This document shows, in pieces, positions 1,841 to 35,921 of a DNA stretch of 36,541 bases (its first letter is position 1; each line of letters opens with the position of its first letter). The notes below the pieces were generated by a model. That model worked only from the letters and a program-made list of their open reading frames with translations. It ran no database searches and was not told where the DNA came from. This stretch comes from a virus: the IMG/VR virus record IMGVR_UViG_3300032214_000234, positions 1 through 36,541 of that record; one strand, given 5' to 3'. The position numbers and the translations under genes are program-made.

Positions 1841-3175
1841 ATGGAAAAAATCATTGAAAAATTAGACGCTATAGAAGCGGCAAATTTAGCAAAGGTAGCT
1901 GAAGTAACAACTACTGTCGATGCTAAAATTGCTGAAACTGTAGCTTCTTTTGATGAAAAAGTAGCGGCACTTGAAGCTAAAGTTGCTTCAATTAATGCGC
2001 CTTCAACAATTAAAACATACAAATCAATTTCGCAAGAAGTTAATCGTATGGTTAAAGGACAACTTGCTGAATTTATGAAAGGCAATGGTCGCGTAGAAAA
2101 AGAAATTAAAATGTTTGAAGATGCTGGTCAATATGACGCATACCTCAAAGAAGCTTCAACTCTAACAGGTTCAGGTGCAGGCATTGGTGGTAGAACTGCT
2201 TATGATCCAGTATTTGCGGCATTGCGTTTAGAAAATCCTATGCGCGGTGTATCTCGTTCAGTTGCTACTGACGCTTCTACATATCAATTTAGAGCTAAAA
2301 CAGGTAATGCTGGTGCTGGTTGGGGTTATGGTATTGTTAATAATACTGCGGCTACAACTGAAGCAACTTCAATTTGGCAATTAAACTTAAAAGACTTAAA
2401 TGTTCAATTCCCAATTAGAACTGCGGCTTTAGATGACATCGATGGTTTAGAATCTAATGTAGTTTCAGATATGTTAGCTGAATTTAGCCAACGCGAAGCT
2501 CAATCTATGATCACAAACAACGATCAAGGTGCGGCTACTGCAACTGGTGGCGGTGGTTCTGACGGCTTACGCGGTCTTAATCAATATCCTGGCGCTAATG
2601 CTTCTTACACAGGCGGCACAACATCAGCTTCAGATTTTGGCTCATCAGGCACAGCATCAAGCGATGGTTTGCATGATCTAGCAACATACGATCAATTAAC
2701 AACAAACGGAAACGCATTAACAAACAATGTAACTTATGAAGATGTTGTTAATTTTGTTTATGCATTACCACAAGCATATTGGACACCTAATGCTAAATTT
2801 GTTATTAACCCTGTAATGCTTTCAGCAATTCGTGGTTTAACAGATACACAAGGTCGCCCAATTTATGTTGATGGTTTAGCACGCAATGATGGTATTGTAG
2901 GCTCATTACTAGGTTTTGATGTTGTTGTTAATACTTATGTAAATGCACCTTCTAAATATTCAGCATCGGCTGGAACTGATAGTTTATATCCAATGTATTT
3001 TGGTGACTTTACTAGAGGTCATACTATTGTTGATCGTTTAAACATGGTATTACGCCGTTATGATCAAACATTGCCAGGTTCTATTACTTTCTATGGTGAA
3101 AAACGATTAGCAACATCTATTGTTGATCCTTTTGCTTTAGTTCGTTACAGATCAACTGCAACTGCTGATCTATAG
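1841..3175 (+). CDS. major capsid protein 1, HK97 fold with N-terminal scaffold domain
   Basis: This is the main shell protein, 444 aa. Residues 1 to about 58 form an Ala/Glu/Lys-rich coiled coil (the delta or scaffold domain), followed by a linker to about 103. The conserved EASTLTGSG stretch at 104-112 is where HK97-type capsid proteins are usually trimmed, so the mature protein probably begins there. The rest has the HK97-fold signature with IWQLNLKDLNVQFPIRTA, DGLRGLNQ and a C-terminal FYGEKRLATSIVDPFA. It follows the protease by 3 bases and is followed by a strong terminator. A shorter paralogue comes right after, which is unusual. Confidence 0.95.
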   Translation: MEKIIEKLDAIEAANLAKVAEVTTTVDAKIAETVASFDEKVAALEAKVASINAPSTIKTYKSISQEVNRMVKGQLAEFMKGNGRVEKEIKMFEDAGQYDAYLKEASTLTGSGAGIGGRTAYDPVFAALRLENPMRGVSRSVATDASTYQFRAKTGNAGAGWGYGIVNNTAATTEATSIWQLNLKDLNVQFPIRTAALDDIDGLESNVVSDMLAEFSQREAQSMITNNDQGAATATGGGGSDGLRGLNQYPGANASYTGGTTSASDFGSSGTASSDGLHDLATYDQLTTNGNALTNNVTYEDVVNFVYALPQAYWTPNAKFVINPVMLSAIRGLTDTQGRPIYVDGLARNDGIVGSLLGFDVVVNTYVNAPSKYSASAGTDSLYPMYFGDFTRGHTIVDRLNMVLRRYDQTLPGSITFYGEKRLATSIVDPFALVRYRSTATADL

Positions 3176-3243: not shown

Positions 3244-4302
3244 ATGAATACATCTGAAAAAATTTTAAATGGCATTAAACAGGCTTTAACTGAAGGTCAA
3301 GCCACAGTTAATTTTACTGATAATAATAAGACCAAAGATGTAGAAGAAGCATCAACGCTAACAGGATCAGGCTTAAATATTGGTGGTCGAGTTTATTTTG
3401 ATGACGCTTTTGCCGCTTTAAGATATGCAAACCCATTTAGAATGGGAAGCCGTCAAGTTACATACACAGGATCAGCCGCTCAATTCGTGGCTAAAACAGG
3501 TAATGCCGCAGACGCAACAAACCCTTTTACATACCCTGTAACTCCAAATAGTGGTAGCCCAAATATTGCTACAACAATATGGCAATTACCTACTAGAGTT
3601 ATTACTGCACAATTACCAATTAGAACTGCCGTTATGGATGATATTAATGGCATCGATCCAGCTATATCTAACGACTTAATGCTTGAGCTATCATCGCTAG
3701 AAGCACAGTCAATGGCTCTTAATGACGATCAAGCAGGCTCAACAACAACAACAACTGGCGGAACTGATGGTTTGCGCGGTTTAGTTGTATATAGCACAAG
3801 CACTTCAGCCGCATCTTATGGCTCAAGCGGAACTGCTATAACTAATGGTATTCATACTGTTTTAAAAGAAGAATTTTCAGCATCAGCAATTACTTATGAC
3901 GACATTGTTAATGCGGCTAATTTATTGCCTGGTCAATATTGGGCATTACCTACAACTGCATGGCACTTACATCCTTCTTTAATTTCTCAATTAAGAAAAT
4001 TAAAAGGATCAACAGGTGGCGCTCCAATGTTTGTTGAAACGGGAACGGAAGACGGCGGATCATTAGTTTATTTATTCGGATTCCCAGTAATTGTTAATCC
4101 TTATTTAGCCGCTCCAGCCGCAGGTAAGATTTCAGGCGTGTTAGCAAATTGGGATCAATTCTTAACTATTGCTGATGCAGAGGAAATGAATATTAAACGC
4201 TTTGATCAAACTGCACCTGGCTTTATAACTTTATTTGCAGAGAAACGATTAGCATCAACTGTTAGAAATCCTTTTGCAGGCGTATTTTTAGTAGGGGTTT
4301 AA
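3244..4302 (+). CDS. second HK97-fold capsid protein (paralogue of 1841-3175)
   Basis: This 352-aa protein aligns along its length with the preceding capsid protein. Shared blocks include EASTLTGSG (35-43 here, 104-112 there), TTIWQLP against TSIWQLN, PIRTAVMDDINGI against PIRTAALDDIDGL, GGTDGLRGL, YDDIVNAANLLPGQYW, and RFDQTAPGFITLFAEKRLASTVRNPFA. It lacks about 69 N-terminal residues, so the scaffold coiled coil is gone, but the candidate trimming site is kept. It has its own Shine-Dalgarno sequence (AGGAATACAAATG). By analogy to T4 gp23/gp24 it may be a vertex or minor capsid subunit; a decoration or redundant copy is also possible. Homology is clear; the role is inference. Confidence 0.9.
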   Translation: MNTSEKILNGIKQALTEGQATVNFTDNNKTKDVEEASTLTGSGLNIGGRVYFDDAFAALRYANPFRMGSRQVTYTGSAAQFVAKTGNAADATNPFTYPVTPNSGSPNIATTIWQLPTRVITAQLPIRTAVMDDINGIDPAISNDLMLELSSLEAQSMALNDDQAGSTTTTTGGTDGLRGLVVYSTSTSAASYGSSGTAITNGIHTVLKEEFSASAITYDDIVNAANLLPGQYWALPTTAWHLHPSLISQLRKLKGSTGGAPMFVETGTEDGGSLVYLFGFPVIVNPYLAAPAAGKISGVLANWDQFLTIADAEEMNIKRFDQTAPGFITLFAEKRLASTVRNPFAGVFLVGV

Positions 4303-15702: not shown

Positions 15703-16293
15703 ATGTCATTTATTTTTGAGCAAGATCAATTACAAGATTACGCAACAGTAAAACAGGTTTTTTCAAAAAGTGAATGCGAACAAATTATAAAATATGCAAA
15801 TTTAAAACAAAAAAATAATGCCGAAATAAATTTAAATAATGAAGCTAAAAACGATTCTTCTATAAGACAAACAAAATTAGCTTGGATTTCATTAGATAAT
15901 TGTGAAACTTATGAAATGTTTGAATTATTTAAAAGATTTGGAAGCGTTGCATATCATTTAAACGAGCAATTTTTTAAATTTGATTTGTTTGGATTTTCAG
16001 AGGATTTTCAATTTTGCGAATATAATGCTCCAAATGATAAATATGATTGGCACATGGATAAATGTTTTGGAAAAGGAATTAGAAAGTTAGCACTTACATT
16101 GCAATTAAATGATCCTAATGAATATGAAGGCGGTAATTTTGAAATAATGACAGGAAAAGATCCTTTTACTATTAAATTAGAACAAGGTGAAATAGTTGCT
16201 TTTCCTTCTTATATTCTGCATAGAGTTACAGAAGTAACAAAAGGAAAAAGAAATTCTTTAGTTGGATGGGCAAGTGGAAAATCATTCAAATAA
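15703..16293 (+). CDS. 2-oxoglutarate/Fe(II)-dependent hydroxylase (prolyl 4-hydroxylase-like)
   Basis: This 196-aa enzyme has the full Fe(II)/2OG site: His117 and Asp119 in YDWHMD, His173 in YILHRV, and Arg183 in KGKRNSLVGW for 2-oxoglutarate. The N-terminal SKSECEQIIKYA helix is typical of PKHD/P4H-type hydroxylases. Such enzymes hydroxylate Pro, Lys or Asn side chains using O2. The gene stands just upstream of the collagen-like fibre gene, which suggests a virion substrate, but that fibre has very few prolines. Substrate unknown. Ribosome site AAAAGGAATT. Confidence 0.88.
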   Translation: MSFIFEQDQLQDYATVKQVFSKSECEQIIKYANLKQKNNAEINLNNEAKNDSSIRQTKLAWISLDNCETYEMFELFKRFGSVAYHLNEQFFKFDLFGFSEDFQFCEYNAPNDKYDWHMDKCFGKGIRKLALTLQLNDPNEYEGGNFEIMTGKDPFTIKLEQGEIVAFPSYILHRVTEVTKGKRNSLVGWASGKSFK

Positions 16294-16858: not shown

Positions 16859-19492
16859 ATGGCTACATTATCGATTACACCCGCACCCGCTAATGATATA
16901 TCGGTATCGGTTAATGCTACCGATGTAACCTTATCTCAAGGCACTACTCTTAATGTTGAAGTAACACCTACACCTGCTACGACTGTCATAGTTGATCGCG
17001 GTGTAACAGGCGCTTCAGGTCAATCAGGCTATTCGGGCTATTCAGGTTTTAGCGGAGCAGGCATAAGTGGCTCAAGCGGTATTTCAGGCTATAGCGGATT
17101 TAGTGGTTATAGCGGTATATCAGGCTTTTCAGGCATAAGTGGTTTTTCGGGGTATAGCGGAGTTAATGGAGCTAGTGGTATTAGTGGCTATAGTGGCTTT
17201 AATGGAGCTTCAGGCGATTCAGGTTATTCAGGAATATCAGGTTGGTCAGGCTTTAGTGGCATTAATGGTTTAAGTGGCTATAGCGGAATAAATGGCTTTA
17301 GCGGTATATCAGGATGGTCAGGCGAATCAGGTTATAGTGGATATTCAGGTCATTCAGGCATAAGCGGATGGAGTGGCGATTCAGGCATAAGTGGTTATAG
17401 TGGTTTTAGTGGCATTAGTGGACATAGTGGCGATTCAGGTATAAGTGGTTTTAGTGGCTATTCAGGCATTAGTGGCTGGAGTGGCATATCAGGATTTTCA
17501 GGCATATCAGGCTATAGTGGCATAAATGGTTTATCAGGATATTCAGGTCAAAATGGCGCATCAGGTGAATCAGGCTATAGTGGCTGGAGCGGTGAAATTG
17601 GCTTTTCAGGCATATCAGGATATAGTGGTTATAGTGGCTTTAGTGGTCAAATTGGTGCTAGTGGTATAAGTGGCTTTAGTGGCTATTCAGGTCAAGTAGG
17701 TGCTTCAGGTGATTCAGGATTTAGCGGTTGGTCGGGCGAGGTTGGCTTTTCAGGCATATCAGGATTTAGCGGATATAGCGGCATATCAGGATTTAGCGGT
17801 CAAGTAGGCACTTCAGGCTTTAGTGGCTTTAGTGGCTATAGTGGTTTTTCAGGTGAGGTCGGCGCTTCAGGTGATTCAGGATTTAGTGGATGGTCAGGTG
17901 AAGTAGGTGCAAGTGGCATAAGCGGCTTTAGCGGCTATAGTGGCATAAGTGGATATAGCGGTGATAGTGGCTTTAGCGGTGATAGTGGCATATCGGGATA
18001 TAGCGGTTATTCAGGCGCAACTGGCGCTCAAGGTCAATCATCAAGCTTTTTTAAATATAAAGCTGATCTTTCTGCTACAAGCGGACAACCTACTGATGGT
18101 CATGTCTTATGGAATAATACAAATCAAATTAGTGCAACTCAAATTAATATCAGTCACCTTACTGAAGATAATACTGACATTGATATTTTCTTATCTACCT
18201 TGCAACCAACTGAAACATTTGTTCTTCAAGATAGAAGTGTAAGTGGAAATAATCAATATTGGTTAATTACGGGTGCTACAACAAACATTAATGGCGGAAC
18301 TGTAAATAGTTATTGGACTATTCCTGTAAGTTTAATTTCTTCAGAGGGAACAGGAACAACTAATTTTCCATCTAACAAAGAATTATTTTTAGCTATTGTT
18401 AATGGTGCATCAGGCTATTCAGGTTTTAGTGGATATAGTGGTTATAGCGGTGCTTCAGGCGCTTCAGGTTATAGCGGCTATTCAGGCTATAGCGGTGAAA
18501 TAGGAAGTCCAGGCATTAGCGGCTATTCAGGTTATAGCGGCTATTCAGGTTTAGTTGGTGATTCAGGTTATAGTGGTCATAGCGGCATATCAGGTTATAG
18601 CGGCTGGTCAGGTGAAGTTGGTCAATCAGGCTTTTCAGGATATAGCGGTGAAGTGGGTGCGCCTGGTCTTTCAGGTTATAGCGGATATAGCGGTTATTCA
18701 GGTTTAGTAGGCGATTCAGGCTATTCAGGTATTAGTGGGTTTAGCGGCTTTAGCGGCGCACAAGGTGATTCAGGTTTTAGTGGCTTTAGTGGTGAACAAG
18801 GCACTCCAGGACTTTCAGGATATAGTGGCTATTCAGGTGCGCAAGGTGCTGAAGGACATTCAGGCTATTCAGGAATTAATGGTGCATCAGGCATTAGTGG
18901 TTTTAGTGGAGCTACAGGCGAATCAGGTTTTAGTGGATTTAGTGGCGCATCAGGTGAATCGGGTTATAGCGGTATAAGCGGAACTAATGGTGCAAGTGGC
19001 ATTAGTGGTTATAGCGGATATTCAGGTATAGACGGAACTAATGGTGCATCAGGTTTTAGTGGCTATTCGGGTGCTGAAGGTGCTAGTGGTTTAAGTGGGT
19101 TTAGCGGTTTTAGTGGCGCGCAAGGTTTGTCAGGTTATAGTGGTATTAATGGATTTTCAGGTATATCAGGTTTTAGTGGAGCTAATGGCGAAAGTGGTTT
19201 TAGCGGCTATAGTGGATATTCAGGATCGGGCATAAGTGGTTTTTCAGGCTTTTCAGGATATAGTGGCGTTCAAGCAAATGTAGTTAATAGTTTAATTTAT
19301 GATGCTTATACTGCAACCGCTGGTCAAACATCATTTACAACAACCAGCACTTATACTGCAAACAAAATTCAAGTTTCAGTTAATGGTGTTATACTTGTTA
19401 ATGGAACTGATTGCACAGTATCAGGCGGCACTACATTTACAACAACTGCATTAACTTTAAATGATACGGTATTAGCTATATATCCAATCTAA
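16859..19492 (+). CDS. collagen-like Gly-X-Ser repeat fibre protein
   Basis: This 877-aa protein has an N-terminal beta domain (1-47), Gly-X-Y repeats (48 to about 392), a globular insert (about 393-515), further repeats (about 516-803) and a C-terminal beta domain starting YDAYTATAGQTSF. Repeats run as GYSGISGFSGYSG, so X is mostly Tyr, Phe, Ile, Ala or Trp and Y is mostly Ser; proline is nearly absent, unlike animal collagen. It likely forms a long trimeric fibre, or polyglycine-II-like bundles, on the tail. Neighbouring oxygenase and glycosyltransferase genes may modify it. Length of the repeat tracts may vary by slippage. Confidence 0.85.
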   Translation: MATLSITPAPANDISVSVNATDVTLSQGTTLNVEVTPTPATTVIVDRGVTGASGQSGYSGYSGFSGAGISGSSGISGYSGFSGYSGISGFSGISGFSGYSGVNGASGISGYSGFNGASGDSGYSGISGWSGFSGINGLSGYSGINGFSGISGWSGESGYSGYSGHSGISGWSGDSGISGYSGFSGISGHSGDSGISGFSGYSGISGWSGISGFSGISGYSGINGLSGYSGQNGASGESGYSGWSGEIGFSGISGYSGYSGFSGQIGASGISGFSGYSGQVGASGDSGFSGWSGEVGFSGISGFSGYSGISGFSGQVGTSGFSGFSGYSGFSGEVGASGDSGFSGWSGEVGASGISGFSGYSGISGYSGDSGFSGDSGISGYSGYSGATGAQGQSSSFFKYKADLSATSGQPTDGHVLWNNTNQISATQINISHLTEDNTDIDIFLSTLQPTETFVLQDRSVSGNNQYWLITGATTNINGGTVNSYWTIPVSLISSEGTGTTNFPSNKELFLAIVNGASGYSGFSGYSGYSGASGASGYSGYSGYSGEIGSPGISGYSGYSGYSGLVGDSGYSGHSGISGYSGWSGEVGQSGFSGYSGEVGAPGLSGYSGYSGYSGLVGDSGYSGISGFSGFSGAQGDSGFSGFSGEQGTPGLSGYSGYSGAQGAEGHSGYSGINGASGISGFSGATGESGFSGFSGASGESGYSGISGTNGASGISGYSGYSGIDGTNGASGFSGYSGAEGASGLSGFSGFSGAQGLSGYSGINGFSGISGFSGANGESGFSGYSGYSGSGISGFSGFSGYSGVQANVVNSLIYDAYTATAGQTSFTTTSTYTANKIQVSVNGVILVNGTDCTVSGGTTFTTTALTLNDTVLAIYPI
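17000..18034 (+). repeat. Gly-X-Ser coding repeat tract 1
   Basis: Nine-base units of the type GGN-NNN-(TCA/AGT/AGC) repeat for about 345 codons. Synonymous Ser and Gly codons are heavily shuffled, so the DNA repeat is much less perfect than the protein repeat, which suggests selection against slippage. Confidence 0.9.
18404..19267 (+). repeat. Gly-X-Ser coding repeat tract 2
   Basis: This is a second tract of the same triplet type, about 288 codons, after the globular insert. It contains more Glu, Gln, Asn and a few Pro (GSPG, GAPG, GTPG) than tract 1. Confidence 0.88.
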
Positions 19493-19501
19493 AGGATTAA
19501 C

Positions 19502-20131
19502 ATGGACAAGATAACACAAGATGCTTTGGCATACTTTAAGAAGCATGATCCAAACCATTACAGATTTTTACTTACAAATAATTATGAGCGAGCGGTTTTT
19601 CTCAAAGGCGATCCCGTCTATCCTAGAGAATCCACTCGTTATCTTTGGGCTAACCGCAATTTATTAGGCAAGAATATTCTTGAAATAGGTTGTTCTACAG
19701 GTTACGGCTCTCAATTCATTCCTAATGATGCAAACTATATAGGTTTAGATTACGATCCTCTTATTATAGAGGTCGCACGCGAACAGGAATGGGGCTTAAA
19801 CACTTCCTTTTCTTTAGCTGATATTAACACCTATCCTTTAGCTCAATATGACACCATAATTGCTTTTGAGCTTATTGAACATATTGATAATGGACTTGAA
19901 ATAGCTCAAATGCTAAAGAATCATTGCAGACGACTTCTTCTTACTACTCCGCATAATGAGCCTGTAGGATTTTGGGGCGAGCATCATAAGCTTCATGGCT
20001 TAAATGAATCACACTTTCCCGACTTTCAATTTAATTATATAAATGAGCATGGTTATATTTCAGAAACTTTACCTAAAATTAATGATGCTAATAAATTTAA
20101 TCTTATGATTATGCGGTGGGATCGTGGATAA
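19502..20131 (+). CDS. class I SAM-dependent methyltransferase
   Basis: At 209 aa it shows motif I as ILEIGCSTGYGS (59-70), then a YIGLDYDP acidic strand end, and a FELIEHID motif typical of small-molecule or sugar methyltransferases of the UbiE/Methyltransf_11 group. It overlaps the glycosyltransferase gene that follows, so a sugar or glycan substrate is likely. It may act on glycans added to the fibre or on host surface sugars; the target is inference. Confidence 0.85.
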   Translation: MDKITQDALAYFKKHDPNHYRFLLTNNYERAVFLKGDPVYPRESTRYLWANRNLLGKNILEIGCSTGYGSQFIPNDANYIGLDYDPLIIEVAREQEWGLNTSFSLADINTYPLAQYDTIIAFELIEHIDNGLEIAQMLKNHCRRLLLTTPHNEPVGFWGEHHKLHGLNESHFPDFQFNYINEHGYISETLPKINDANKFNLMIMRWDRG

Positions 20132-21092
20132 GGTTCTTTGCTCTGTAGCTACTCGCGGTCGTTATCAAACTACTTTACCTTTAACGCTTAACGCTATAAT
20201 TAATCAGACAAAAAAAGTTGATAAGCTTATTATCTTTGATGACAATGATGAGCCACAAGATATGCGAAAAGAGTTGGTCTATAGCTACTTTTTTCAAATG
20301 CTGGATATTAAAGGCATTCAATGGGAATGGTTATATGCTCAAAAAAAAGGTCAGCATCATATTCATCAAATGGCTAATACTATGGGCTTTGATTGGGTGT
20401 GGCGGGTTGATGATGATGCAATACCCGAACCTAATGTCTTACAAACTTTATTTAATTACACAAGCAAAAAAGTAGGCGCAGTAGGTGGCGCAATACTAAC
20501 ACCGCCATTACAGTTTCAAAATGAAAAGCCTACAGGCAAAATAGAATTAATTAATAGAGAGCCTAACATTCAATGGTCTTTTATTGAAAAGGTGAAAGAG
20601 ATTGAGCATCTTCATTGTTCGTTTCTTTATAGGGCTGGGGTGCATGATTATCATCTAGGACTTTCAAGGGTAGCACATAGAGAAGAAACATTATTTACTT
20701 ATGGGCTATTTAAAAAAGGTTATAAGATTCTTGCCGTTCCTAATGCTAATACTTGGCATCTTAAAAATCCTAATGGTGGTATCAGATCAGAAACAAATCA
20801 AAAGTTATATGAGCAAGATGAATTAATATTTAGAAATACAATTGCTTATAAAGACAAAAAGATTGTAGTGCTTAATTGCGGCATGGGCGATCATATTGTA
20901 TTTAGTCATGTAATGCCTGACATTACAAATGCGGAAATCTTTACTTGCTATCCTGACATAGTGCCAGGCAGATCAATTGCTGAAGCTAGAGCTTTATTTG
21001 GTGATATAGACCAATGGAGTATTTATAAAAAAATGGCGCAATGGAAATGGACTGATAGTTTAGAGAATGCTTATAGGAAAATGTATTTATGA
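20124..21092 (+). CDS. glycosyltransferase GT2-like fused to N-terminal half of a GT9-like domain
   Basis: At 322 aa, starting at GTG 20124 inside the methyltransferase end. Residues 1 to about 240 are a GT-A glycosyltransferase with SVATRGRY at the start and Asp96-98 in WRVDDDAIPEPN as the nucleotide-sugar/metal site. Residues 246-322 are different: KIVVLNCGMGDHIVFSHVMP is the opening strand-loop of GT9/heptosyltransferase-like (GT-B) proteins. The GT9 C-terminal half appears to be encoded by the next, overlapping gene. Together they could add sugars to the fibre or to host lipopolysaccharide. Confidence 0.8.
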   Translation: MDKVLCSVATRGRYQTTLPLTLNAIINQTKKVDKLIIFDDNDEPQDMRKELVYSYFFQMLDIKGIQWEWLYAQKKGQHHIHQMANTMGFDWVWRVDDDAIPEPNVLQTLFNYTSKKVGAVGGAILTPPLQFQNEKPTGKIELINREPNIQWSFIEKVKEIEHLHCSFLYRAGVHDYHLGLSRVAHREETLFTYGLFKKGYKILAVPNANTWHLKNPNGGIRSETNQKLYEQDELIFRNTIAYKDKKIVVLNCGMGDHIVFSHVMPDITNAEIFTCYPDIVPGRSIAEARALFGDIDQWSIYKKMAQWKWTDSLENAYRKMYL

Positions 21093-22492: not shown

Positions 22493-22581
22493 TCCGTTTT
22501 CACTCAAGTAATTGATTTATATAGAAAAGAATGAAAACAATTTGCATGAAACTTTAAATAATACACACTATACACACAATA

Positions 22582-22607
22582 AAAAAGGGGCATTTTAAGC
22601 CCCTTTC
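22582..22607. terminator. bidirectional rho-independent terminator
   Basis: AAAGGGGC (22584-22591), a seven-base AT loop, and GCCCCTTT (22599-22606) form a strong stem. On the minus strand it is followed by a run of T, so it is best for ending the leftward operon; on the plus strand the T run is shorter but it can also stop the late transcript. Confidence 0.88.
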
Positions 22608-22616
22608 TTACAAGCA

Positions 22617-22651
22617 AAGCTACCATCAATAGCTTCCCCTATTTAAAGCTA
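22617..22651 (-). ncRNA. alternating hairpin elements in the pqqA 3' untranslated region
   Basis: Read on the minus strand after the pqqA stop, three 6-base elements occur: TAGCTT, AAGCTA, TAGCTT (plus-strand 22646-22651, 22630-22635, 22617-22622). The middle one can pair with either flanking one, giving two mutually exclusive hairpins just before the terminator. This may affect stability or termination of the pqqA transcript; no function is shown. Confidence 0.4.
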
Positions 22652-22723
22652 CTATTTATTCATTACATACATAGTAACTTCAAAGCCAAATCTCATTTCT
22701 GTAGCTGCTGGAGTTGTCCACAT
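22652..22723 (-). CDS. pqqA: PqqA-like precursor peptide of pyrroloquinoline quinone
   Basis: This 23-codon gene is too short for normal gene finding. The peptide begins MWTTPAATEM and contains RFGFEVTMY, with Glu15 and Tyr19 spaced as in bacterial PqqA (E-x-x-x-Y). In the known pathway PqqD presents PqqA to the radical SAM enzyme PqqE, which links Glu15 and Tyr19; a protease then frees the pair and PqqB/PqqC finish PQQ. Length (22-24 aa usual), the MW-P start, the R-x-G-x-E core and the polar end all fit. A clear ribosome site (AAGGGG, 6 bases before ATG) supports translation. No other pqq gene is in the phage, so it must rely on the host enzymes. It is the last gene of the leftward operon. 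Confidence 0.88.
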   Translation of the reverse strand: MWTTPAATEMRFGFEVTMYVMNK

Positions 22724-22798
22724 AATATTCCCCTTAATTAAAAAAATACTGCGATTTCATTATGGGCTACATTATGGATCAAGCCATCAGTAAAATCA

Positions 22799-23047
22799 TT
22801 AAAATGGCATTGCTGAATCGCCTGCGCCTGTATTAAATGTTGCGCTTGATCCTGCACCATCTTTAGGTTGCGGTTCTCTCATTGTTACCCAGCCGTCAAA
22901 ATTGACAGGGATAGATTCTATGAGAAGTGAAGTGCCGCCTTGTTTATTGCTCATAGCCACACCTACTTTAGTCCATCTAGCTTTTGTTTCGCCTTCTTTG
23001 TTTACATACTCGCCTGTTTTAGCGATTAAATCATGGGTTATTGCCAT
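22799..23047 (-). CDS. SSB-like small protein of the recombination operon (82 aa)
   Basis: This small protein has a single beta-barrel-like layout: DLIAKTGEYVNKEGETKARW followed by VGVAMSN, LLIESIPVNFDGWVTMREPQ and a flexible Gly/Ala tail ending DSAMPF. Small proteins of this pattern are common in plasmids and phages, and the acidic-aromatic tip recalls SSB tails. It overlaps the exonuclease gene, so a role in single-strand DNA handling is plausible but not proven. Confidence 0.55.
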   Translation of the reverse strand: MAITHDLIAKTGEYVNKEGETKARWTKVGVAMSNKQGGTSLLIESIPVNFDGWVTMREPQPKDGAGSSATFNTGAGDSAMPF

Positions 23048-23705
23048 TTTGTATTTCCTTTAAGTTGTTTACGATAGTTTCAATTTCAGACAAAAAGGCG
23101 ATCACCGCATTTTGCATGTTATTAATATATTCATCATCTCGATAAATACGCTTTACGAATCCCTGTAAATGATCGGGCATATCAGGATCATAAGATACAA
23201 GGTCGCAAAATTCTCTTTTTTCATTTCCATTAGAGCCAGGCACGCAAGCCAATTGCCATTGCACTTGGTCATAATATTGTTCTAATTGTTTACCACCCGT
23301 TAGGATGTTATCCAAATGGTTTTCAGGATTGGGTATCTTAATCTCAATTAAAGAATTAGTGGCATCAACTACTCCGTCAGGGCTACATTGACCGCCATCA
23401 ATAGATGGGTGTAAAACAATTGCTACCTGATCCACAAAGGTATTATATTTAACTTCATACCATGCCCTAGCCATAGGTTCTAAATCTATTCCTCGTTGCA
23501 TTGCAGGCGTTTTATAGGTATCTAATTTCTTACCTGTCAATCTTTCCCTAATCAATTCATTCTTATATTTTCTACGGGTTAAAGATTCAGCACCGCTTCG
23601 ACCTTCAGTTAAGACATCAGCAACCCTTGAGCCGCCAATCTTACCTATTCTTAAAGCCATCCATTCAGGACTGCCTTGTTCTATACCTCTAATTATTCTA
23701 TCCAT
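23031..23705 (-). CDS. YqaJ-family viral exonuclease (lambda Exo type)
   Basis: At 224 aa this is a PD-(D/E)XK exonuclease that works with a single-strand annealing protein. Motifs are GIEQGSPEWMALRIGKIGGS at 7-26, Glu76 in RGIDLEPMARAWYE, Asp110 in CSPDGVVD, Glu121 and Lys123 in IEIKIP, and YYDQVQWQLA. It would resect double-strand ends in 5' to 3' fashion. The ERF protein two genes upstream in the same operon is the expected partner. The start overlaps the end of the upstream gene. Confidence 0.92.
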   Translation of the reverse strand: MDRIIRGIEQGSPEWMALRIGKIGGSRVADVLTEGRSGAESLTRRKYKNELIRERLTGKKLDTYKTPAMQRGIDLEPMARAWYEVKYNTFVDQVAIVLHPSIDGGQCSPDGVVDATNSLIEIKIPNPENHLDNILTGGKQLEQYYDQVQWQLACVPGSNGNEKREFCDLVSYDPDMPDHLQGFVKRIYRDDEYINNMQNAVIAFLSEIETIVNNLKEIQNGNNP

Positions 23706-24135: not shown

Positions 24136-24302
24136 AATTTAGGGCTTTGAATTCTGCCATATAAAGGGGCTAATAGGTATTTATCACCCAGCTCTCTTTT
24201 AATAGCTTCTATTCTTGTTTTACGGGCTTCTATAGCCATTAATTCTTGCGCTGAATAGGGTAGCGTCACTCCGTAAAAATTACTGTTTCTTAATCCTTCC
24301 AT
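24132..24302 (-). CDS. small hypothetical protein between ERF and nuclease-like genes (56 aa)
   Basis: The start ATG at 24302 overlaps the ERF stop by one base (TGATG), and the stop overlaps the next start by several bases. The peptide starts MEGLRNSNFYGVTLPYSAQE and continues with a charged helix (LMAIEARKTRIEAIKREL) then LLAPLYGRIQ. No family recognised; the coupling on both sides argues it is real. Confidence 0.65.
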   Translation of the reverse strand: MEGLRNSNFYGVTLPYSAQELMAIEARKTRIEAIKRELGDKYLLAPLYGRIQSPKL

Positions 24303-24847
24303 CATAGCTCCGCCTTTCTTTTATCTTTAGCTTCAATTACCATTTTAGATAGAGTGCGATCATTCTTAACTTCACCCATTACAAAATTATAATTAGCCTG
24401 GAGTTCTTCTAAAGTTTGTGAATGAGCTATTTTTTGAAGATAATCTGCGGCATTGAGCGCGGCTGATTGACCATCATCATCCGTATCAGAATAAAGACTT
24501 AAAAATGCTGAAAGGCTATAACGGCGAATGTAGGATACGGCGCTTCCCAATCCCTGACAATCTTGCTTTTGTAAGGGGCAGACGGCAGTATCTTCAATCC
24601 ATTCCCCCGAACTATGGATTAAACGAGTAGTTAAATGAAGTTTGCCGTCATCGGATGGACTTAACGACTGAAGTATTGCAATATTATTGTTGTTTAATGG
24701 CGCTTTAACTGCATCAATAACTGAATTGATATTGGCATACTTGGATTTGTAATGAGGGTTAGTTGAATCTTTAACGGCAAATCTAATTTCTTTTTGCGCG
24801 GATACTAAAGCTTCAGCTATCTGTTTGATGCTTTCGGAAGTTTTCAT
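24302..24847 (-). CDS. ERF-family single-strand annealing recombinase
   Basis: At 181 aa this has the ERF core: TNPHYKSKYANINSVIDAVK at 29-48 and LGSAVSYIRRYSLSAFLSLY at 100-119, followed by SDTDDDG (the acidic metal-like motif). It anneals complementary single strands during phage recombination and genome circularisation. It is co-transcribed with a YqaJ exonuclease. The C-terminal helix (about 135-181) is shorter than in P22 Erf. Confidence 0.92.
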   Translation of the reverse strand: MKTSESIKQIAEALVSAQKEIRFAVKDSTNPHYKSKYANINSVIDAVKAPLNNNNIAILQSLSPSDDGKLHLTTRLIHSSGEWIEDTAVCPLQKQDCQGLGSAVSYIRRYSLSAFLSLYSDTDDDGQSAALNAADYLQKIAHSQTLEELQANYNFVMGEVKNDRTLSKMVIEAKDKRKAEL

Positions 24848-33793: not shown

Positions 33794-34266
33794 TGAGCGC
33801 AAGAATACCAGCCGAAGTGCATTTAATTCATGGCACTAAAGGCGAAAAAATGGGAACGCTCCTTCCCGAATCAGTAAAAAAAAGAATTCCCGAATCCGAG
33901 TGGATGGACAACCCTGATGCCTGGAGCAAAAAAAGATTTTACGATGAAACTGCCGATTATCTTTTTGAAGTCTATGGCATAGGTTCGGATCAAGAACGCC
34001 ACACTCTTACTATGCTGACAGATCAGATTGACACCTATGTTGATTGCAATCGACATATTGCCGTTGAAGGTTTAGTAACTAGCTTTAATGACGGAAAGAC
34101 TATTGGTCCATCGCCTTATGTTTCTATTCGCAAAGAAGCTCTCAAGCAAATTATTCTTTTAATGAATGAGCTTGGACTTACACCAAAATCAAGATTAGCA
34201 AAACCATCATCTATGCCAAGTTCTACTTTAGGAAAATTAATGTTAGGACCACAAGTTAAGAGATGA
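33793..34266 (+). CDS. terminase small subunit, P27 family
   Basis: ATG 33793 is preferred over GTG 33784 because the G-rich ribosome site then has normal spacing. At 157 aa it has the P27-type pattern: KRFYDETADYLFEVYGIGSD, then LTMLTDQIDTYVDCN and SPYVSIRKEALKQIILLMNELGLTP, with a basic Pro/Ser tail. It recognises the packaging site and recruits the large subunit, whose start overlaps by 4 bases. Confidence 0.88.
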   Translation: MSARIPAEVHLIHGTKGEKMGTLLPESVKKRIPESEWMDNPDAWSKKRFYDETADYLFEVYGIGSDQERHTLTMLTDQIDTYVDCNRHIAVEGLVTSFNDGKTIGPSPYVSIRKEALKQIILLMNELGLTPKSRLAKPSSMPSSTLGKLMLGPQVKR

Positions 34267-35921
34267 GTTATTTAATTGGTGTTCAATATGCTCAAGATGT
34301 AGTTAAGGGCAATATTGAAGTTTGCAATAATATAAAATTAGCATGTCAGCGCTTCCTAAACTTTATGGAAGATAAGCATTGGGAATATGAGTTCTTTCCT
34401 GAATATGTAGAGCATGTATTAGATTTTGTTTCTGTTCTTAAACACACCAAAGGTCCTGACGCTGGACAACCAATAGTTCTTGAACCTTTCCAAGTTTTAC
34501 TTCTTTGTGGCATCTATGGATTCCGCCATAAGAAAGACCATGAAAAAAGAATGACCACCGATGTCATTGTTTTTATTCCTCGCAAAGCTGGCAAATCAAC
34601 TCTGACCGCAGTTATAGGTTTATATGAATTAGCATTTAATGAAGCTGGCGCTGAAGTCTTTACACTTGCAACTAATCGCGAACAAGCCACTATTGTTTTT
34701 GATGCCGCTCGCTCAATGGTTGAATCTATGCCCGATGAAATTAAATCATGGTATCGAGTAAGCAAATATGAGATTGGCAAAGCTAATGATAGTCAAACAA
34801 TGTTTAGAGCTTTATCTCGCGACAATAAAAAATCAGGCGATGGTAAAAATGCCAGTTGCGCCATAATAGACGAAGCGGCTCAAATTGCTGATCGCAATAG
34901 TATAGAGGTTATATTTTCAGGCATGGTTGCGCGCAAGAATCCATTAAGGATTTATATTACTACCGCATCATTTACTAAAGACACAAAGTTTTTTGAAGAT
35001 TTAACTGCTTTTGAAACAATACTTAATGGCGATGCACCTGACAATCCTCATTGGTTTGGTTTGTTATACGGACTTGATCCGCAAGATAATTGGAAAGATG
35101 AAACCACTTGGGCTAAAGCTAATCCAATGCATGGCATATCTGTTTACCAAGAAGCAATTAAAGAACGATGCGAACAAGCTAAATCAAAACCTGCCGCACT
35201 AAATGAATTTCTTTGCAAAACTCTTAATGTTTATGTATCTGCTAACACCGCTTGGATTGATCGCGATTACTGGGATAAGTCTATAGGCGAAGATAAAGGC
35301 GATCCTGAAGAAGTCTTTATTGGATTTGACTTGGCGGCAACTCGCGACTTAAATGCAGTTTGCACTTTAAAACGATATGCTTCCGAAGATTATTATGCTG
35401 ATTTCAAATTCTTTTTGCCTGAAGAAGCGTTATCCTTGATTCCAACTCATTATCGTGGTATATTTGACCAAGCCGTTCAATCTAAAATATTGCATATTAC
35501 TGAAGGCAATGTTATGGATGATCGCGAGATTTCAGAATATATAAAACAACAAGCTAGTTTATATAATGTTAAAGAAGTAGGTTATGACGCTTACAATGCG
35601 GCTTCTTTAGTTGCTCGACTACACGATAATAGCATTCCAGTTAAGAAAGTTGGACAGGGTATGGCGGTTTTAAATAACCCATCCAAGCATGTTGAAAAGC
35701 TCATCATGCAAAACGCTATTAAACACAATGGCAATCCATTTGTGGGTTGGCAACTAGGCAATTGCGAAGTTTATACCGATGTCAATGGCAATATTAAGAT
35801 TCGTAAGAACGAAGCAGATAAGTCAGCAAAGGTTGATGGTATAATAGCGCTTATTATTGCGATGCATTGCTCACTAGATCATCCATTGACTTCTACCTCA
35901 TTTGGTTTTAGAAGTATATAA
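34263..35921 (+). CDS. terminase large subunit
   Basis: At 552 aa it has the packaging ATPase with Walker A IPRKAGKS (105-112), Walker B CAIIDEA (199-205) and coupling motif ITTAS, and the RNase H-like nuclease with Asp356 in FIGFDLAATRDL, Asp in EVGYDAYNA and Asp in AKVDGIIALIIA near the C-terminus. This is the lambda/HK97-like P27-associated class. It ends 9 bases before the portal start. Confidence 0.96.
   Translation: MSYLIGVQYAQDVVKGNIEVCNNIKLACQRFLNFMEDKHWEYEFFPEYVEHVLDFVSVLKHTKGPDAGQPIVLEPFQVLLLCGIYGFRHKKDHEKRMTTDVIVFIPRKAGKSTLTAVIGLYELAFNEAGAEVFTLATNREQATIVFDAARSMVESMPDEIKSWYRVSKYEIGKANDSQTMFRALSRDNKKSGDGKNASCAIIDEAAQIADRNSIEVIFSGMVARKNPLRIYITTASFTKDTKFFEDLTAFETILNGDAPDNPHWFGLLYGLDPQDNWKDETTWAKANPMHGISVYQEAIKERCEQAKSKPAALNEFLCKTLNVYVSANTAWIDRDYWDKSIGEDKGDPEEVFIGFDLAATRDLNAVCTLKRYASEDYYADFKFFLPEEALSLIPTHYRGIFDQAVQSKILHITEGNVMDDREISEYIKQQASLYNVKEVGYDAYNAASLVARLHDNSIPVKKVGQGMAVLNNPSKHVEKLIMQNAIKHNGNPFVGWQLGNCEVYTDVNGNIKIRKNEADKSAKVDGIIALIIAMHCSLDHPLTSTSFGFRSI
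35837..35845 (+). promoter_or_regulatory. candidate extended -10 motif in the terminase end
   Basis: TGG-TATAAT occurs within the codons for Asp-Gly-Ile-Ile, about 90 bases before the portal start. The same ten bases (ATGGTATAAT) occur at 741-750 in the portal. No -35 is clear, so this may be chance. Confidence 0.25.

Follow-up and report, generated by a model that had tools for sequence, protein, structure and literature searches.

The DNA analysed here (the window) is a stretch of 36,541 nucleotides, positions 1 to 36,541 of the IMG/VR virus record IMGVR_UViG_3300032214_000234, and its feature of interest is a short minus-strand open reading frame (ORF) at 22652–22723. By its sequence this ORF is a genuine pqqA gene, coding for the peptide precursor of pyrroloquinoline quinone (PQQ), and it is the final gene of a leftward cluster that also codes for an Erf-like protein, a YqaJ/RecE-like exonuclease, and a protein of 82 amino acids. 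An earlier note, made from the letters alone, gave the coordinates, the minus strand, the length of 23 codons, the MW-P start, the RFGFEVTMY core, and the residues Glu15 and Tyr19, and all are exact; so are the good ribosome site that it saw (AAGGGG, 6 nucleotides before the ATG) and the place at the end of the leftward operon, with pqqA last in the minus-strand recombination cluster. Glu15 and Tyr19 form the E-x-x-x-Y pair expected to be cross-linked.

Identification of the peptide

The comparison with PqqA profiles proposed in that note was run, and the peptide matches both curated models over their full length, exceeding the cut-offs by about 19 bits: Pfam PF08042 with 40.3 bits (cut-off 21.1, E 3e-10, model positions 1–19 of 19) and the NCBIfam equivalog TIGR02107 with 38.8 bits (cut-off 20, model positions 1–21 of 21). 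The ORF is the single PqqA match in the 36.5 kb record (E 1.1e-10), the same kind of search gave no matches in 14 control genomes, and a loose PqqA motif is present once in the window and in none of 100 first-order Markov sequences of the same length. A sequence search of the PDB with the 23-mer found nothing. A chance ORF is ruled out by the E-value of 1e-10 together with the synteny and the ratio of non-synonymous to synonymous change (dN/dS) described below.

Conservation in P19250A-like phages

The window record is viral, with a terminase, two capsid-type proteins, a tape measure protein, and an endolysin on the same 36.5 kb. Its terminase large subunit is 95.5% identical to that of the cultured phage P19250A, whose host is the freshwater Methylophilaceae isolate IMCC19250, and the right-hand 21.5 kb of the window aligns to P19250A with about 87% DNA identity over 54% of the query. 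The structural genes and the synteny with P19250A place pqqA in a genuine viral setting, and not in a host contaminant.

Synteny was assayed in IMG/VR relatives anchored on the YqaJ gene and extending at least 700 bases beyond it (n = 65), with YqaJ proteins 73–96% identical to that of the window. In 63 of the 65, pqqA lies about 290–480 bases downstream of YqaJ on the same strand, and the check in relatives suggested by the earlier note thus finds the ORF with its Glu15 and Tyr19; the search pattern required both residues, and no syntenic copies without one or the other were left over among the 65. Among 69 syntenic copies (43 distinct DNA sequences, the window included and some from shorter contigs), synonymous divergence (pS) is 0.42 and non-synonymous divergence (pN) 0.047, with dN/dS of 0.077. 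Gapless identity is 89% within pqqA and 44% and 37% in the two 60-base flanks, where it is lowered by insertions and deletions. Farther out, the near-full-length relatives G175, G179, G185, and G193 (terminase 61–79% identical) are without PqqA, and G176 (76% identical) has it.

A neutral passenger, that is, a short host gene gained by recombination at the operon end and bringing the phage no benefit, could be read from the small size of pqqA and from two natural losses among close relatives. The strength of the purifying selection, the retention in 63/65 relatives whose YqaJ has diverged by as much as 27%, and the presence of pqqA in distinct phage families make such a passenger very improbable, and on these comparisons of sequence pqqA is an old, selected phage gene.

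Host pqqA genes and the absence of pqqB–E from the viral loci tested

Methylophilaceae genomes all carry pqqA (150/150), with a median of four copies and a range of 1–12, and 3–12 copies alongside a single pqqBCDE have been reported (PMC4109929). Among 20 host genomes, PqqE above the curated cut-off was found once in 17, twice in G003, and in neither of two fragmentary ones. Some larger genomes (G008, G038) have one pqqA copy just upstream of the pqq cluster; in genomes of Methylopumilus size (e.g. G037, G059) all copies are more than 100 kb from pqqE, scattered between unrelated genes, and in G037 pqqE is at 594 kb and pqqA at 424, 469, and 1194 kb. A methanol-grown strain with five copies expresses the stand-alone pqqA3 highly, alongside pqqA1, during PQQ production (PMC9851590). 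Hosts keep pqqA apart from the pqq enzymes, and the phage adds a further solitary copy of this kind. We also note that OM43/Methylopumilus-type hosts (L477, L473, L470, and others) have tandem pqqA genes about 200 bp apart and away from pqqBCDE, one peptide of the pair ending in VMNK and the other in VCNK or VCNR.

Host Methylophilaceae encode the exact 23 amino acids of the window peptide, with DNA differences that are synonymous only, and the window gene is a metabolic gene of host type on which purifying selection acts. The closest host copy found is identical at 64 of 69 nucleotides, the differences falling in four codons, and the best copies in genomes of Methylopumilus size reach 63 of 69. 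The identical peptide and the kinship with P19250A agree with the PQQ-making, methylotrophic host that the earlier note had predicted. Many scattered, nearly identical host copies could also serve as attachment sites, the phage-borne copy restoring the host gene upon integration in the manner of tRNA genes, but this is scarcely credible: the 36.5 kb record has no tyrosine integrase, the gene has diverged synonymously both from the host copies and among the phage relatives, and what is conserved is the reading frame, including a ribosome site and a stop of its own, and not the flanking DNA.

There is no PqqE in the window, and 204 other viral loci tested, with two mis-filed bacterial contigs set aside, gave no match to pqqB, pqqC, pqqD, or pqqE, so the peptide would act only through host enzymes. 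Host contamination of the viral contigs was tested with host PqqC, PqqD, PqqE, and C-terminal PqqB, and only the two set-aside contigs matched; no complete pqqABCDE operon was found among the viral loci tested, the sole matches again being these contigs. Both (L009, CAKLQF020000010; L010, CAKLQH020000055) are filed as 'Acinetobacter phage MD-2021a' and are bacterial chromosome with ppk, fur, and pqqABCDE; any viral PQQ genes counted from them would be false.

Working only through host enzymes, the phage peptide would compete with host PqqA, as would suit a decoy that ties up PqqD/PqqE or the peptidases and reduces PQQ synthesis, for example stopping respiration or the formation of formaldehyde. 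In a decoy the two cross-link residues could change, or would even be expected to, but they are kept in every syntenic copy, and the peptide is letter-for-letter that of the host in the window and many relatives; we therefore give a decoy very little credence.

Distribution among other phages

Among 50,697 phage records, tblastn located pqqA in P19250A (KX815270), Venkman (MT375522), MEP301, MEP401, MEP402, and four Melnitz isolates, and in the environmental genome ctXG6705. Melnitz is classified in the Kyanoviridae and MEP401/402 in the Zobellviridae; the others are unclassified. In Venkman and ctXG6705 the gene adjoins recombination genes, but inverted, in MEP401/402 it is near a structural module, and in Melnitz it adjoins a tRNA gene. 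The Melnitz ORF is MKWTKPVAQEMRFGFEVTMYIMTR and is preceded by AAGGAGG. None of the matched genomes has the gene annotated as pqqA: P19250A, Venkman, MEP301, and MEP401/402 have no annotated feature over it, and in Melnitz and ctXG6705 an antisense 'hypothetical protein' overlies it, bearing out the remark in the earlier note that gene callers easily miss it.

At least 589 stretches in IMG/VR encode a close relative of the window PqqA. The best 80 loci by similarity are biased towards the query and were left out of the estimate of diversity; a less biased pattern scan, limited to PqqA with GFEVTMY, yielded about 35 different peptides at 80 loci. One large ORF was taken from each of 76 of these 80 loci, and these ORFs match phage terminases of several families as well as phage replicative helicases, DNA polymerases, and ribonucleotide reductases. 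Viral variants ending in VCNK resemble the second host paralogue, which ends in VCNK or VCNR, a likeness that suggests more than one acquisition.

Some viral variants are unlike Methylophilaceae PqqA, on contigs that carry phage portal, DNA polymerase, or tail genes, and other PQQ-making hosts may therefore be involved. Among them are viral contigs L185, L194, L199, L205, and L208, whose PqqA starts with MWTKPTYE(T/K). If such variants belong to phages of other PQQ makers, PqqA could be supplied for a benefit other than methanol oxidation, namely redox protection or other quinoprotein dehydrogenases, through PQQ or its intermediates. The cultured phages found with pqqA all infect Methylophilales methanol users, and we regard this version of the benefit as unlikely.

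Flanking elements and neighbouring genes

Table 1. Features at and around pqqA in the window.
Feature	Position	Strand	Basis
pqqA, 23-amino-acid PQQ precursor MWTTPAATEMRFGFEVTMYVMNK, TAG stop	22652–22723	-	PF08042, TIGR02107, dN/dS
Shine-Dalgarno AAGGGG, 6 nucleotides before ATG	22730–22735	-	sequence
Terminator-type hairpin after pqqA, 11 pairs, AAAGGGGC/GCCCCTTT core, T-rich 3' arm	22581–22609	-	fold
Second hairpin, between pqqA stop codon and terminator hairpin	22610–22642	-	same fold
Small conserved protein, 82 amino acids, directly upstream of pqqA	22799–23047	-	weak PHROG matches, unknown function
YqaJ/RecE-like exonuclease, synteny anchor	23031–23705	-	phrog_149 1.3e-40, phrog_434 2.5e-23
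Erf-like single-strand annealing protein, same operon as pqqA	24302–24847	-	phrog_2324 6.1e-49
Terminase large subunit, used to place the phage	34263–35921	+	phrog_9 8.7e-138

A loosely defined Shine-Dalgarno-like 4-mer precedes all 168 distinct viral pqqA copies. The stretch with both hairpins 3' of pqqA folds with -30.5 kcal/mol (z = -4.7), and the GGGGCTTAATTGCCCCTTTTTT of the terminator hairpin is also present in L398 and L451, two relatives without pqqA. A simple terminator scan does not list this hairpin, probably because its stem takes up the T run. A consensus promoter scan gave 14 matches, with 14.3 in shuffled sequences, and with no excess over shuffles no promoter is claimed. In ctXG6705 the neighbour in the place corresponding to the 82-amino-acid protein is annotated as a putative single-stranded DNA-binding protein. 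In P19250A the YqaJ exonuclease (P19250A_0031, L002 3046–3702) is given as a diguanylate cyclase/phosphodiesterase, an annotation that looks wrong.

Elsewhere in the window, two tandem rightwards ORFs (1841–3175 and 3244–4302) match the major head protein phrog_10 (1.4e-35 and 5.3e-18) and are possibly two capsid subunits. A tail-region protein of 877 amino acids (16859–19492, rightwards) consists mostly of collagen-like G-x-SGYSG repeats. Downstream of the tail genes, rightwards ORFs for a 2OG-Fe(II) oxygenase (phrog_61; 15703–16293), a protein with a weak methyltransferase match (19502–20131), and a glycosyltransferase-like protein (20124–21092) form a candidate modification cassette.

Proposed role of phage pqqA

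PqqE, with PqqD, cross-links a Glu and a Tyr of PqqA, and the pathway uses up one PqqA for every PQQ made. The readings as a decoy, an attachment site, or a passenger fit the data worse than a supply of PqqA, and we think it probable that the window carries a solitary auxiliary metabolic gene with which the phage supplies PqqA to the host pathway, sustaining methanol oxidation. This proposal draws on the peptide, its cross-link residues, the purifying selection, the fixed place, the identity with the host peptide, and the lack of a phage pqqE, all of them shown by the DNA itself; we infer, as did the earlier note, that PQQ and alcohol oxidation would be boosted. As the last gene of the leftward operon, phage pqqA would be expressed to give the peptide, the host PqqD–PqqE pair would join Glu15 to Tyr19 of the phage peptide, and host peptidases, PqqB, and PqqC would complete PQQ. 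PqqA may be the component that runs out most readily when gene expression in the host falls; because each PQQ uses one PqqA peptide, the phage gene would keep up the supply, its multicopy, replicating template keeping PqqA stocked as host transcription drops. Newly made methanol dehydrogenase would still be charged, and methanol oxidation would then power phage replication.

Several points weigh against a supply role. In L398 and L451, of the same lineage, pqqA is cleanly absent, although both the upstream protein and the terminator are intact, and no copy is present elsewhere on their contigs (10.8 kb and 37.5 kb, respectively); the gene is therefore dispensable. The two phages are natural comparison strains for the loss of pqqA. 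PQQ is held tightly by its enzyme, and the hosts have several pqqA copies of their own, so that PqqA need not be the limiting item in infection. In Acetobacter, pqqAB raised PQQ by 29% and the whole pqqABCDE eightfold (PMC7936290), a result that speaks against PqqA alone as the main limit there.

A broader form of the proposal is that solitary pqqA is a convergent, near-obligate trait of methylophages, taken up independently by distinct families because PqqA supply limits methanol-driven phage production, in parallel with the several stand-alone pqqA copies that the hosts carry; we consider the arguments for and against this form to be evenly balanced.

Should the supply of PqqA be borne out, common phages of aquatic methanol oxidisers would possess an auxiliary metabolic gene that ranks among the smallest known and that gene callers have overlooked, and a virus could steer a cofactor pathway by delivering its substrate peptide alone. 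In lakes and coastal seas, viral infection would then be tied to methanol cycling, and the up to 12 pqqA copies of Methylophilaceae would become a testable question of PqqA supply. The gene can also serve to flag quickly which uncultured phages have hosts that make PQQ.

Comparison with known systems

Viral PqqA has already been reported, and we correct the earlier note on this point: the T4-like Lake Baikal virus VP_266 (Coutinho et al. 2020) encodes PqqA and methanol dehydrogenase (PMC7678222), and the viral genes listed in a reservoir study from 2026 include pqqA, pqqD, and pqqE (PMC13188868). The isolate papers of Venkman, Melnitz, MEP301, and MEP401/402 make no mention of pqqA, the only 'PQQ' in the Melnitz paper being a medium ingredient. 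The breadth, conservation, and solitary form of pqqA in cultured methylophages appear undescribed in the searchable literature, the P19250A paper (2017) lying outside it.

The window gene resembles Methylophilaceae PqqA (PF08042, TIGR02107) in its 23 amino acids, ribosome site, and Glu15/Tyr19, and is solitary as copies away from pqqBCDE normally are there; it differs in being phage-borne, in lying at the end of a recombination operon, and in its Arg11 codon, AGA in the window and CGT or CGC in the host copies examined. P19250A, Venkman, MEP301, MEP401/402, and Melnitz have the same peptide gene, 70–100% identical to that of the window, but, except in P19250A, in a different position or orientation. 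VP_266 likewise has a virus-borne PqqA predicted to support methanol oxidation by Methylophilaceae; it is T4-like with its own methanol dehydrogenase, whereas the window is P19250A-like, at 36.5 kb, with none noticed among its ORFs. Like the psbA-type genes of cyanophages, the window pqqA would be a phage copy of a host component resupplied in infection, but those genes code for an enzyme or protein subunit, whereas pqqA codes for a peptide that a cofactor pathway consumes as its substrate.
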